Below the pieces are notes generated by a model. That model was not told the origin of the DNA. It searched no databases and saw only the letters and a program-made list of their open reading frames with translations. A DNA stretch of 64,000 nucleotides from NCBI GenBank assembly GCA_015272325.1, contig JACYLU010000001.1:248001-312000 (forward strand), in the 5' to 3' direction. Positions 22,244-56,764 of the stretch are shown piece after piece (the stretch's first letter is position 1; the number at the start of each line of letters is the position of its first letter). The translations under genes were made by a program, and so were the position numbers. The DNA comes from Synechococcales cyanobacterium C42_A2020_086 (GTDB taxonomy: Bacteria; Cyanobacteriota; Cyanobacteriia; Elainellales; Elainellaceae).

Positions 22244-23287
22244 ATGACAATGCGAGCAGTATTGTGTGGCTACTACGGCAAGGGCAATGGCGGCGATGAA
22301 GCGCTCTTAGCCTCACTACTCCAAATGCTGCCTTCCTCAGTGGAACCACTCGTGCTGTCGGGCAATCCAGATGAAACCTGCCGTCGCTACGGTGTTGCCG
22401 CTTGCGATCGGATGTCTGCTTTTGCCGTATTGCAGGCACTGCGCCGCTCTGATGCTTTGCTTTGGGGCGGTGGCAGCCTGATGCAGGACACGACGAGTGC
22501 CCTTAGCCCGTGGTACTATAGCGGGTTGATGGGCTTGGCTCAGCAGCTTGGACTGAAAACGATCGCCTGGGCCCAGGGCATTGGTCCTCTAAAACGAGCA
22601 ATGACCCGACAACTCGCGCGACGGGTCTTTAGCCGCTGCACCGCGGTTAGTGTGCGCGATGTGGGTTCAGCGCAGATCCTCAGCAAGTGGCATATTCCTT
22701 TTACATTGGCTCCCGATCCGGTTTGGGCACTGCAGCCTCGACCCGTCCCTGGACTATGGAACCTGCCCGCACCTCGGGTTGCGGTTGCCCTTCGCTCCCA
22801 TCCTCAGTTAACTCCCGAGCGGCTGTATAGCCTAACAACTGCTCTGGTCGATTTTCAAAAAGCAACCCAAACCTTTATTTTGTTGATCCCGTTTCAACCG
22901 GTTCAGGATCAAGAGATTGCCGAATCGATTCATGCCCGGATGCCGCAGGTTAGCCAGGTGCTGCTCCTGCCAGATCCCCAGCAGTTGCGAGGAGTTTTTC
23001 AGGGCGTTGAACTCACCATCGCTATGCGCTTCCATGCCTTGATCATGGCAGCCGCAGCAGAATGTCGCTGCTTTGCAATCAGTTACGATCCCAAGGTGAG
23101 CCAGTTAATGCACGACCTAGAGCTGCCAGGTTTATCGCTCGAGCAGATCCCCGTACAGCCGGCATTACTCTGCCAGTCGTGGCTAGAACTGTATGCCAAT
23201 GGAGATCCCCTGAGCGGCAGTCGCATCCAGTCCCTCATCGATCGCGCGTTGCTGCACCAAGATTTCCTCGCTCGGGTTTTACGATGA
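22244..23287 (+). CDS. csaB: Polysaccharide pyruvyl transferase CsaB
   Basis: Adds a ketal-linked pyruvate to a cell-wall-associated polysaccharide, the modification that anchors SLH-domain surface proteins. The 347-residue protein shows the family start LCGYYGKGNGGDEALL, the LLWGGGSLMQD and AWAQGIGPL segments, and the late VELTIAMRFHALIMAAA block. ATG 22244 is preceded by AGG. It is a single gene; the coiled-coil gene follows 259 bp downstream. Confidence 0.93.
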   Translation: MTMRAVLCGYYGKGNGGDEALLASLLQMLPSSVEPLVLSGNPDETCRRYGVAACDRMSAFAVLQALRRSDALLWGGGSLMQDTTSALSPWYYSGLMGLAQQLGLKTIAWAQGIGPLKRAMTRQLARRVFSRCTAVSVRDVGSAQILSKWHIPFTLAPDPVWALQPRPVPGLWNLPAPRVAVALRSHPQLTPERLYSLTTALVDFQKATQTFILLIPFQPVQDQEIAESIHARMPQVSQVLLLPDPQQLRGVFQGVELTIAMRFHALIMAAAAECRCFAISYDPKVSQLMHDLELPGLSLEQIPVQPALLCQSWLELYANGDPLSGSRIQSLIDRALLHQDFLARVLR

Positions 23288-23546: not shown

Positions 23547-25700
23547 ATGAGTCCGCCCGCTGATCCGTCTGCACCTTCTGACGCTAGAGCATTTCAGCGT
23601 TTCCAGTTACAGCTACCAGTGACAGCTATGAGTGAAGCCAACACCCCGTTCAATCGCCCAGAGTCCTCTGAATTCCTGGATGCTTCCGAGGAGCAGATAT
23701 TGCCCAATCGCAACGGGGAGACCTCTACAGGCGATGCTCTAGCCCAGCCCTGCCGTCCCCATCTAGCTGACCCCTGGCAAGACGATCCGTCCGAGACGTC
23801 AGTTTTTGATCTAGACAGCATCTTTGACGCCAGCGCACTAGACGGTGTGGCCTTTGAAGATGACTCACCGGATATGCCTCAATCCCTGCTGGGTAATGAC
23901 TCTGAAGCAGCAGCTGAAACGGCTGACCTAGCCAACCATCTGCCCGCAGAAGGGGTTGCAGATGCATTGGCAACTCCGGTTTTGGCTGAGCACGGCTCCG
24001 CTGAAACATTGGCTGCCACCATGACCGCCGAAGCCGATGTCTCGCTGTCCGCTTGGTCCGATGAGATCAATCCCACTGCTCCTCCCAACTTGGCAGACCT
24101 AATTAACCTGATTCAAGAGCTAAATCAGTGCAACGGCATTTTGATGGATCGGGTCTCGCAACTCGAAGAAGCGCTAGAAAGCAGTCAGAATGCTCTCCAG
24201 GCCGAGGTTGGGCGGTCGCATGAGCCTACAATTTTGCATAGCCCCAATGACTGGGTAGCCCTGCAGGAGCAGATTACCAACTTGTTTAATCAGCTCGAGT
24301 TTGCTCACCAAACCAACCAGCGGCAACAAATCCTGATTGAAACCCTAACCGAGCAACTGGAAAGTAGCCAGGAGCGCGTTGCCGAATTGGAACGGGAGGC
24401 AGCTCTGCTTCAACAGCGCTATAGCGAGCAAGCCCAGCTATTTGCCAAATCGGAAACTGCCTGTCGCGACCTGCAAGCCCGCTTGCAACGGCAGCAACGC
24501 TACACTCTTCAGTTCAAAGCGGCCCTGGAAAAATGCCTAGAAGTTCCCACTCCCAACTATGAAATGGGGGTAGACAGCCCGGCGGCTCCGCTCACGGTAG
24601 ACCCCTTCCTGCCCAAGGCCCAGCAGATCCAGCCATGGTCTGCCGATGCCCAGCTCTTGGCGACCAAAGCAGCCTGGATGAAGCTACAGGCCCTGAGTTT
24701 AGAGGCGGTACCCGAAACCAATTTTTCTACGGCATCGGTCGATACAGATGAGACAACGGCTGTTGCAGCCAAATCTGCGACAAGCCCAACTCCCCACAAT
24801 GCGACTCCACGAACCACATCTCATCTGAAGCTGCCCTCCTTTGGACTTCCTCTGCTGCAGGTCTCAGGTCTAGAGGAAGCAACCGATCAGTTGGCTGCTG
24901 AGATCCCTCCTGCACAGACGTCAGAGATAGGCAGCCAACCAGAGATCCCATCCGTTACTGATCCCGCTTTGAAGCAGCATATCGATGCTGCTGTGAAGCC
25001 TCTGGCTGAGATGTTGGCCGAGGCAATTTTGGCTGATCGCTTGACTGATGGTGCAACCGAGCCAGCCGTGGCTCCTGCAACAGAGACACCTTCGCCATTT
25101 GCGCAGTCGTTCTCAGATGCAGAGTCAGCTGAGGAAGCGATAGATGAACCCATGACTGCTGAGCAGCTTTTGGCTTCTACTATGGCTGATGCCGAAGATG
25201 CCCTATGGCAAGATTTGGCACGCTTAATCGATGTCTCCCCGGAAGATGTTGTGAGAGCTAGCCGGACCGGCGATTTTGCTGCCTTTGAATCTATGCCCTC
25301 TGAAGGGCCAGTGACTTCTGTTCCAGAGATCCAGATAGAGCCTCGGATAGAGCCAGAGAAACCAGTGCCCTCCTGGTCAGGGGTGCGTCCTTTTCAGGTG
25401 GATCGCTCAGCACCAAACATGGCCTCACTGCAGCCAACTGCTGAAGCGACCCATCCTCCAGCCGAGCAAGGTGACACCTCGACGATTTCGCTAATTCGCA
25501 AAGTAGCTAAGGCAGCCCAGCAGACTCCCTCGATGGAGATGGGCCAACCTACCTCGGCTCAAGAGTCTCAGGGGTTGATTCCAGCACTCGCTCATCAGGC
25601 AAGCTGGCCCTCTCCGATTGTGTATCCGCTCCGTCCTACGAAAAAGCGGCAGTCTCTGGCGATGGTCGATCTGCCCACTTTTCCCCGAGGACAGGCTTAG
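23547..25700 (+). CDS. Long coiled-coil cyanobacterial protein, function unknown
   Basis: A 717-residue acidic protein with no membrane segment. Residues 1-180 and 335-690 look disordered (rich in A, E, P, S, T). A central coiled coil spans about residues 184-335, starting DLINLIQELNQCNGIL and ending RQQRYTLQFKAALEKCLEV; this core is strongly patterned and probably the conserved part. The C-terminus ends in SPIVYPLRPTKKRQSLAMVDLPTF, a compact motif partly shared with the coiled-coil protein encoded at 55337-56764. The stop overlaps the stop of the convergent CAP gene by 4 bp. A scaffold or polarity role is plausible but unproven. Confidence 0.8.
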   Translation: MSPPADPSAPSDARAFQRFQLQLPVTAMSEANTPFNRPESSEFLDASEEQILPNRNGETSTGDALAQPCRPHLADPWQDDPSETSVFDLDSIFDASALDGVAFEDDSPDMPQSLLGNDSEAAAETADLANHLPAEGVADALATPVLAEHGSAETLAATMTAEADVSLSAWSDEINPTAPPNLADLINLIQELNQCNGILMDRVSQLEEALESSQNALQAEVGRSHEPTILHSPNDWVALQEQITNLFNQLEFAHQTNQRQQILIETLTEQLESSQERVAELEREAALLQQRYSEQAQLFAKSETACRDLQARLQRQQRYTLQFKAALEKCLEVPTPNYEMGVDSPAAPLTVDPFLPKAQQIQPWSADAQLLATKAAWMKLQALSLEAVPETNFSTASVDTDETTAVAAKSATSPTPHNATPRTTSHLKLPSFGLPLLQVSGLEEATDQLAAEIPPAQTSEIGSQPEIPSVTDPALKQHIDAAVKPLAEMLAEAILADRLTDGATEPAVAPATETPSPFAQSFSDAESAEEAIDEPMTAEQLLASTMADAEDALWQDLARLIDVSPEDVVRASRTGDFAAFESMPSEGPVTSVPEIQIEPRIEPEKPVPSWSGVRPFQVDRSAPNMASLQPTAEATHPPAEQGDTSTISLIRKVAKAAQQTPSMEMGQPTSAQESQGLIPALAHQASWPSPIVYPLRPTKKRQSLAMVDLPTFPRGQA

Positions 25701-49115: not shown

Positions 49116-50033
49116 GTGCCCAAAGCTGGCATTATCTACAACGACATAAAGCCTGTAGCCTGTCGAACTGCAAAGGAAATTGAAGACAAGCTGAAGGGAT
49201 ATGGTTGGGAGGTTTGCTTAACCACCGGCATGGGCGGTATTTTGGGCTATTCGCAGCCTGACCGTCCAGTGTGCCATACCTCCATCACGCAGATGGTTCC
49301 CCCTGGGTTTGACCAGGACATGGCCTTTGCCATTGTGCTCGGCGGTGACGGTACGGTACTGGCAGCCTTTCGACAGGTGGCTCCTTGCGGCATCCCGCTG
49401 CTGACGGTCAATACCGGACACATGGGTTTCCTGACGGAGTCATACCTTAACCATTTGCCGCAGGCTCTAGAATGCCTGCTTGCTGGCGAGTATGACATTG
49501 AAGAGCGAGCCATGCTGCAGGTACAGGTGTGGCGAGAAGGAACACTGGCGTGGGAGGCGCTCTGTTTGAATGAAATGGTGCTGCACCGCGAACCGCTCAC
49601 CAGCATGTGCCACTTTGAGATCGAACTTGGCAATCATGCGCCAGTCGATATTGCCGCCGATGGCGTGATTATCTCGACGCCGACGGGGTCTACTGCCTAT
49701 TCGCTCTCGGCAGGGGGTCCAGTGATTGCGCCAGGAGTGCCTGTGCTGCAGCTCGTGCCCATTTGTCCGCACTCTTTGGCGTCCCGGGCGCTTGTGTTTG
49801 CCGACAGCGAGCCGGTCACGATTTTCCCGGCAAATCAGAATCCGCTGGTAATGGTAGTTGATGGCAACGCAGGCTGCGCCGTACGTCCCGATGACCGAGT
49901 GCGGATCATGCGCTCCTCTTATGCTGCTCGGTTTATTCGCCTGCGCCCCAATGAATTTTTTCACGTTTTACGAGAAAAGCTAGGCTGGGGGTTGCCCCAT
50001 GTGGCTAAGCCAACCTCGGTAGAGCTGCCCTGA
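49116..50033 (+). CDS. nadK: NAD kinase
   Basis: Phosphorylates NAD to NADP, supplying photosynthetic electron transport and the Calvin cycle. The 305-residue protein shows [15 protein letters not shown] and the [16 protein letters not shown] block. The start is GTG 49116 with GGAG immediately before it. It is the first gene of an apparent operon with an NblR-type regulator (153 bp downstream), a solute-binding protein and a DUF192 protein. Cyanobacteria usually have two NAD kinases; which one this is cannot be told here. Confidence 0.93.
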
Positions 50034-55336: not shown

Positions 55337-56764
55337 CTAGGCGCTGGTTCCCATTCCCGGTTCCTTCAAGGACTGAATCGGGGTTCGTCGTCGCACCAAA
55401 AATTCTGGCAACTCGACGCTGGTAAGCCGCGGTAGGGGCAGTGGAGTTATTGGCTTCGGTCCAGTCAATTTGCCAGTCGGTTCCTCCGAGGATTCCGATC
55501 GTTTTCCAGATGAAGGTTCGCTCGGCTGATCGGGCGGCACAGCAATTTTCAGGGCGTTCAGCAAGTCTGCCACTGCCGGATGCTCAACTAACACAGCCGA
55601 CTGAGTCAAGAGTTGCTCTGCTAGTTCTTTGACTTGAGCCAAGTGCAGCTGACTCGCCGTGTAGCGATCTTTCCAGTACTGCACTGCCGTTTCGTATTCA
55701 GCCGACTGCTGAGCCTGCTGCAAAATTTGCTCCTGCATCTCTGCCACTTGCTGCGTCAGCGTTTGGACGCGAGCCTGCAAGCCATCGCGCTCTGCTTCTA
55801 GCTCCTGCTGATGGTGCTGCCACCGCGTATGCTGCAGCCAGCGCTTTTCGAGATCCTCGACCTGATGCTGAGCCTGAGCCAAGTCGTGCTGCACCGTTGC
55901 CAAACTAGGAGTTTGCTCAATATCACCCGGTGCCGAACGATGCCAGCTCGCCAGCCACGTAGACGCTTTGCCTGCGGATTGAGTATGTTGAGCCTGCTCG
56001 ATTTGGACCTCGAGTTGCGCCAAATGATGCCGATGTTGATACAAGCTCCTAGAGAGTTCTTTAATCTGCTGTTGAGCCGTTTCGAGCTGTCCTTGCAGAC
56101 GGCTATTCAAGGAACGAGCTGCTAAGGTTTCTGCCTCTAGTTCGGAAACTCGCTGCTGCCGGGATTCTAGAGCGGTGTGCAGATCTTGCAGCTGTTTGCC
56201 GAGCCGTTGCCGGTGAGTCTGCACCTCGCGCTGATCATAGACAATTCGCAGCCGCAGCCGTTCCACCTCGCGCTGTTGAGCTTGGGTCATAGACTCAATG
56301 GTGGCTAGCAGCTCCTGAACGGCCTGATCCCGCTGTTGGGTTTCCAGAATTTGCGCGTCTAGAGCCTGCTGCTGCTCGGCAATCTGCAGTTTGAGGCGAG
56401 CAATGGCCTGCTGCTGCACGTAAGAAAACTCTTCGGTGTTCGATAGCTGCGCTTCAAGCACATGCTGATCGCGCAGTTGCAGCCGCAATTCTTCTAGGCA
56501 AATCATCGCCTGATCCAGAGCTTGCTCCAGATCGTGAATTCGGTTACAGCGTTCCTGATCTCGCTGCTGAGCCTGCGCTAGCTCCTCTAATAGCAATTGA
56601 TAGTCTACAGGAGCCAGCCGCAACTCTGAATCCAAACTGGCTTCAGCACCGACTCGCGCCACTCGCGGCTTGTTCGCAGACTCAGAGGCTGACTCGCAGA
56701 CAGGAGCATCAGACTGATACACTCGTGACCTCCGGAAAAGCTCACTACAGTCTACAGCATCCAC
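55337..56764 (-). CDS. Coiled-coil cyanobacterial protein, function unknown
   Basis: A 475-residue protein: short disordered N-terminus, then an almost continuous coiled coil from about residue 50 to 400 (very rich in Q, L, E, A; RIHDLEQALDQAMICLEELR near its start), then a Pro-rich tail. The C-terminus carries LPRLTSVELPEF, matching the L-x-x-V-[DE]-L-P-x-F motif at the end of the protein encoded at 23547-25700. No membrane segment. The DUF5340 gene lies 65 bp upstream on the same strand. Possibly a scaffold; function unknown. Confidence 0.8.
   Translation of the reverse strand: MDAVDCSELFRRSRVYQSDAPVCESASESANKPRVARVGAEASLDSELRLAPVDYQLLLEELAQAQQRDQERCNRIHDLEQALDQAMICLEELRLQLRDQHVLEAQLSNTEEFSYVQQQAIARLKLQIAEQQQALDAQILETQQRDQAVQELLATIESMTQAQQREVERLRLRIVYDQREVQTHRQRLGKQLQDLHTALESRQQRVSELEAETLAARSLNSRLQGQLETAQQQIKELSRSLYQHRHHLAQLEVQIEQAQHTQSAGKASTWLASWHRSAPGDIEQTPSLATVQHDLAQAQHQVEDLEKRWLQHTRWQHHQQELEAERDGLQARVQTLTQQVAEMQEQILQQAQQSAEYETAVQYWKDRYTASQLHLAQVKELAEQLLTQSAVLVEHPAVADLLNALKIAVPPDQPSEPSSGKRSESSEEPTGKLTGPKPITPLPLPRLTSVELPEFLVRRRTPIQSLKEPGMGTSA

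Follow-up and report, generated by a model that had tools for sequence, protein, structure and literature searches.

A conserved C-terminal motif on three predicted coiled-coil protein families of cyanobacteria and its likeness to the FtsZ C-terminal peptide

Three families of predicted coiled-coil proteins in cyanobacteria carry near their C-termini a conserved tail, only a few residues long, with a likeness to the C-terminal peptide of FtsZ. Two of them, a 717-residue protein (family A) and a 475-residue protein (family B), are encoded in the 64,000-nucleotide stretch of DNA that we analysed (the window), and the third (family C) was found by a search of the whole genome. A preliminary description of the window had pointed out the similar C-terminal motifs of the proteins at 23547-25700 and 55337-56764, and we found the open reading frames and tails as described there; the resemblance to FtsZ goes beyond that description and names candidate partners. 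Judging from sequence, we lean towards the view that the tails of A, B and C would have SepF, ZipN or another receptor of the FtsZ tail as their docking partner. The features of family A are as follows.

23547-25700, plus strand: family A coding sequence, 717 aa (open reading frame; C-terminal end SLAMVDLPTFPRGQA)
24087-24551, plus strand: predicted coiled-coil core of family A, residues 181-335, with top conservation (identity to reference per block)
25608-25646, plus strand: proline-rich and basic element of family A (PSPIVYPLRPTKK), residues 688-700, ahead of the tail (conservation)
25653-25688, plus strand: C-terminal tail of family A, residues 703-714 (SLAMVDLPTFPR), with the core VDLPTF at 25665-25682 (conservation)

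Relatives of family A, the named ones being cyanobacteria, were matched in 34 of 40 genomes. The true start of the protein is probably Met28 (window position 23628), which is invariant in a 26-row alignment. Within the core, whose coiled coil we judge from its sequence, identity to the reference is about 0.6-0.7 per 20-residue block, 221-240 excepted, and QQRYTLQFKAAL in the coiled coil attains 0.95. Identity falls to about 0.1 in the linker before the tail, above which the tail stands as a conserved island. Leu709, Pro710 and Phe712 are each kept in 28/28 non-self rows and are also invariant in the 26-row alignment. With a relaxed regular expression the VDLPxF tail was found in 29/29 readable rows, the protein's own row included (30 loci were fetched, and L059, whose reading frame overruns the locus edge, was dropped). 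The strict pattern was present in 69 of 77 complete reading frames from named genomes, drawn from the best 80 of 274 family A loci in that scan; since the named-genome loci partly overlap the 40-genome set, these two samples are not independent. Among the 77, the acidic residue is replaced by K or Q in six, locus L302 ends in VELPKL, and locus L282 lacks any motif. A second conserved element, with the consensus SPxVYPxRPxKK, lies directly before the tail on the plus strand (25608-25646), and among non-self rows it keeps P690 in 27/28 and both P694 and R696 in 26/28.

Family B is encoded on the opposite strand, with the following features.

55337-56764, minus strand: family B coding sequence, 475 aa (open reading frame; C-terminal end RLTSVELPEFLVRRRTPIQSLKEPGMGTSA)
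55997-56611, minus strand: long helix of family B, residues 52-256 (AlphaFold2 model)
55601-55903, minus strand: second long helix of family B, residues 288-388 (AlphaFold2 model)
55385-55429, minus strand: C-terminal tail of family B, residues 446-460 (RLTSVELPEFLVRRR), with the core VELPEF at 55400-55417 (conservation; hhalign to FtsZ)

Matches to family B were obtained in 30 of 40 genomes. Its AlphaFold2 model has a mean pLDDT of 74.0 and a pTM of 0.30; residues 412-449 have mostly low pLDDT, and the C-terminal end, also of low confidence, contains a short helix at 454-457. The tail VELP[DE]FLxRRR, or a close form of it, is present in 26/29 rows, 25 of them recognised by the relaxed regular expression used for family A and one, L022 (HDIPEF), by eye; of the others, L017 is degenerate, and L028 and L029 have no tail. 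These rows come from 30 fetched loci, from which the fragment L023 was dropped; they include the protein's own row and L030, a weak member of the family. That the motif is kept among homologues, a point on which the preliminary description had made its proposal depend, therefore holds for both proteins. It had also raised the idea that the end motif might be the most conserved part of them, which is not so, because the coiled-coil stretches score higher, and it had described basic residues after the motif, which is right for B with its RRR run; A has mostly P-R or P-K after the tail Phe and no RRR.

In a phylum-wide search, filtered at E 1e-8 to remove weak hits, 11 of 17 distinct distant family B proteins had the tail and 6/17 did not (the first set of genomes supplied 5 of the 17; with at most six candidates scored per genome, the 29/292 of this search is no census). 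All six tail-less proteins belong to lineages f13 and f31; together with f9, represented by L028, the tail is therefore missing in three lineages, which implies that it is detachable. Others of the distant proteins carry intermediate tails, for example KVDLPSFLVRHR and KVDLPPFLK. The loci L358-L362 of f13 and f31, which end without the motif, offer a natural experiment on the role of the tail.

The preliminary description had suggested searching for further coiled-coil proteins that end in the motif, and the genome-wide pattern search did yield one, family C (G000:C23; gene at L142:4802-5536, minus strand), whose C-terminus is RRISQLDLPSFPRLGGPSHPIPTFGNAS (LDLPSFPR). The core [LIV]DLP[SNT]F is kept in 30/30 of the loci read, which were the best 30, and 37 of 40 genomes contain a match to the family, weak in some cases. 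After the Phe there is mostly Pro, and the RRR run is absent. Family C belongs to NCBIfam NF045622 (Npun_F5560 family; 227.9 bits against a cut-off of 125, E 5.6e-68), to which families A and B gave no match at E up to 1; NF045622 is a named, uncharacterised family, and its name was found in no paper in our search of the open-access literature. The AlphaFold2 model of C (pTM 0.38) has helices at 10-46 and 52-162 and low confidence beyond; with the helix ending at 162 and the tail core beginning at about 164, there is nearly no linker. Many relatives of C have stops within the first about 55 codons, so that the true start lies further in. The gene is flanked by what we take to be a thioredoxin-reductase-like flavoprotein gene and a DedA-like gene.

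How much such sharing means depends on how often the motif arises by chance. Among the 60 stop-to-stop frames of at least 150 aa in the window, [VIL][DE][LIM]PxF occurs solely in A and B, 5 and 20 residues from the end. For an assumed number of 5,500 genes, however, composition predicts from 1.9 ([VIL][DE][LIM]PxF) to 3.6 (a looser regular expression) matches within 45 residues of the C-terminus. With some 2-4 matching C-termini expected per genome, sharing of the motif is by itself weak evidence, and it is conservation that decides. A chance resemblance of unrelated C-termini, which these expected numbers would allow, is contradicted by the conservation of the tail in three families, and we reject it as having a negligible probability.

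The motif was also searched for across the genome. A first DNA pattern gave 83 matches against 46 for its backward control, and a second, in which I, V or M was allowed, gave 35 against 28, with FtsZ among them. Of these 118 matches (83 + 35), 116 were read in frame, the remaining two being A and B themselves. By eye, we rate A, B, C and FtsZ as the credible C-terminal bearers with a conserved motif, and these four were tested for conservation. Most other matches are very short frames or have the motif internally; a further match is the 136-aa frame L132, and frames with VDLPTFGRP presumably read a GTPase P-loop motif in antisense. L096 (LELPYF, 29 residues from the frame end) was set aside, as the motif is probably inside a folded domain of what we take to be a CobI-type methyltransferase. 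L129 lies on the strand opposite a presumably FtsH-like frame, and L400 and L405 lie opposite or beside long frames. Of other hits, L237 and L240 are frames of 45 and 50 aa, the first inside and the second opposite a long frame, and L266 has its motif deep inside a 902-aa frame. Within the window, a protein that we assume to be NAD-kinase-like (49116-50033, plus strand) ends in KPTSVELP at its stop codon, the motif without the Phe, probably by chance.

We then compared the three carriers with each other. The cores of A and B match by hhalign at 90.0 (E 1.7e-6; 2.3 for the reversed profile and at most 7.5 in eight heptad-block permutations), which makes them distant homologues; the two proteins are thus unlinked but not unrelated, and part of their tail sharing may be common descent. 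The core of C matches neither (0.2 and 0.2), so that C stands, by these profiles, as a carrier of its own. Given the homology of the A and B cores, their tail might simply have been inherited for an internal role, such as self-association or folding back onto the coiled coil, with no docking involved; we regard this as decidedly unlikely, since C keeps the same tail on a core that matches neither A nor B, and some B lineages do without it. The common docking partner proposed in the preliminary description is a reasonable reading for the A and B tails on these sequence comparisons: the homology of the two cores and the loss of the B tail in several lineages weaken it, and the presence of the conserved tail on family C, also a coiled-coil protein, strengthens it. 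In PHROGs none of A, B and C matched a family at E up to 0.001, and the only PADLOC matches were weak ones of A and B to LmuB, over their coiled coils.

The single FtsZ of this genome, encoded outside the window, ends in GLDIPEFLQRRRPPR (LDIPEFLQRRR). Among FtsZ loci, DIPxF is present in 30/30 of those read and exactly RRR in 28/30. Aligned with hhalign, the FtsZ tail of these organisms matches the B tail with a probability of 94.0 (0.7 reversed, at most 2.3 in ten permutations), while the tails of A and C match it weakly, at 6.9 and 9.0 against control values of at most 1.9 and 6.3, respectively. Against full-length profiles the best alignment of the FtsZ tail fell on the tail in all three families, at 75.4 for B, 0.4 for A and 1.4 for C. 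Conversely, when 25 whole genomes were searched with a B-tail profile free of FtsZ, FtsZ ends came up in 5 of them (E 0.088-0.58) and, among frames of at least 100 aa, scored best after family B itself; the FtsZ of our own genome was absent from the matches of this 25-genome search. In a local search at full sensitivity, on a set deliberately enriched in FtsZ loci, FtsZ tails again ranked first after B in frames of at least 100 aa, and our own FtsZ scored 8.5 bits (E 2.1), with a few short chance frames above it.

The likeness consists of a short [VLI]-[DE]-[LI]-P-x-F at the very C-terminus, to which B adds the following L and the RRR; the stretch before it is variable in A, mostly of low pLDDT in B and nearly absent in C. 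In contrast to FtsZ, the tails of A, B and C belong to coiled-coil proteins that have no FtsZ domain (searched against Pfam and NCBIfam at E up to 1, A and B gave no match to an FtsZ model, and with it none to a tubulin-like GTPase domain); in A and C, moreover, P-R follows the Phe and the similarity to FtsZ tails is weak. On these profile comparisons we consider the FtsZ link of the B tail firm, and that of the A and C tails indirect, through B and the common [DE]-[LI]-P-x-F core. Between the families themselves, the tails of A and C match at 93.8, those of A and B at 63.3 and those of B and C at 50.7 (at most 3.3 reversed). The closeness of A and C, which have L-P-[ST]-F-P-R in common, set against their values of 6.9 and 9.0 with FtsZ, could mean that the tails dock on a common partner other than an FtsZ-tail receptor, the likeness to FtsZ being a convergence of a very short pattern that is strongest in B. 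This is unlikely, if by no means negligible, because B bridges the two groups (63.3 and 50.7) while itself being near FtsZ (94.0), and distant B proteins have intermediate tails.

SepF, a candidate receptor, was matched in 40/40 genomes, with two or more matches in 26/40 and two in our own genome (L423:2043-2630, minus strand; L424:1915-2418, plus strand). In the accessible part of PMC7118173, the SepF-FtsZ complex of C. glutamicum contains the bound peptide DDLDVPSFLQ, in which D436, P438 and F440 are marked as conserved; the affinity for the FtsZ tail is given as 15 uM, and a double change of SepF K125 and F131 abolished binding of that tail. These two residues align with R143/F149 in the main SepF copy of our genome and with Q113/F119 in the second, a mapping made by ungapped match and the construct limits given in the same partial source. 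For ZipN/Ftn2, an interaction with the C-terminal motif of cyanobacterial FtsZ is reported, and a phenylalanine is said to matter for ARC6 binding (PMC11285052, as far as its accessible text goes).

We propose that A, B and C have a similar build, in which a coiled coil is followed by a flexible stretch and by a short C-terminal tail that would imitate the FtsZ C-terminal peptide. Oligomers formed through the coiled coils would, like an FtsZ filament, present two or more tails together, and these would dock with avidity on FtsZ-tail receptors at the division site, SepF and/or ZipN (Ftn2). The three proteins would then either join the Z-ring complex or compete with FtsZ for SepF/ZipN. A wider and more tentative version, which we hold to be possible but short of probable, is that cyanobacteria have a network of multivalent FtsZ-tail mimics, in which at least three coiled-coil proteins would present FtsZ-like peptides to SepF/ZipN, clustering or occupying them without FtsZ and tying other structures or, as the csaB-like gene often next to family A may hint, envelope work to the division site; the second SepF-like paralogue of this genome could serve these mimics in place of FtsZ.

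Two further readings turn on what else an FtsZ tail may do. Membrane-binding activity is reported for the last 10 residues of Synechocystis FtsZ (PMC11285052, accessible part), and this activity, together with the RRR run of B, would fit a tail that mainly binds membrane through its hydrophobic and basic residues. We think this very unlikely, as A and C have no RRR run and the invariant P-x-F presumably exceeds what membrane binding needs. The tail might also be a recognition tag for a protease or adaptor in common with FtsZ, the turnover of all bearers then following the cell cycle. In E. coli, FtsZ is a ClpXP substrate, and its tail is involved in recognition. An unnamed protease cleaves FtsZ in Anabaena, but by the account in the accessible part of PMC7766704 it cleaves only natively folded FtsZ, structure and not sequence being decisive, and we consider a tag of this kind most improbable.

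Among known systems, HmpF, a cyanobacterial coiled-coil motility protein (NCBIfam NF038350), occurs in the same genomes (24/25), and interaction with FtsZ and ties to MinD and cytokinesis are reported for it (PMC7002697, accessible part). HmpF is, however, a separate gene with its own copy here (G000:C19). We excluded it as a bearer, as the tail motif is absent from 24/24 HmpF loci, one of them truncated; further, A and B gave no match to the HmpF model (cut-off 200 bits) at E up to 1, and the model is not among the matches listed for C (25 of 30 families). Since HmpF lacks the motif and is yet a reported FtsZ partner, a tie to FtsZ does not require the tail. CyDiv and SepT were rejected as identities because the accessible parts of their descriptions give both transmembrane segments. 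The nearest parallel in principle is in S. aureus, where, according to the accessible part of PMC11062636, the C-termini of FtsZ and PBP4 have a common motif that binds one receptor, GpsB; there, in contrast, the motif is (S/T/N)-R-X-X-R-(R/K), and the coiled-coil protein is the receptor. Our search of the open-access literature, mostly titles and the starts of abstracts, gave no description of FtsZ-tail-like motifs on cyanobacterial coiled-coil proteins.

Cyanobacteria are described as being without FtsA and ZipA (PMC7766704, accessible part), and how they organise their Z-ring is understood only in part. Binding of the tails to SepF or ZipN would turn three uncharacterised proteins, all of them widespread, into divisome candidates at once. 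It would also mean that the landing-pad peptide of FtsZ has been reused on other proteins, and that FtsZ shares its receptors.

Finally, one neighbour of family A deserves mention.

22244-23287, plus strand: upstream neighbour of family A, a gene named csaB-like (same-strand tblastn match)

We take this gene, from its sequence, to be csaB-like (polysaccharide pyruvyl transferase). In 34 of 80 named loci, tblastn placed a csaB-like gene on the strand of family A and at most 1.5 kb upstream of it, which gives a hint, and no more than a hint, of an envelope connection of family A.
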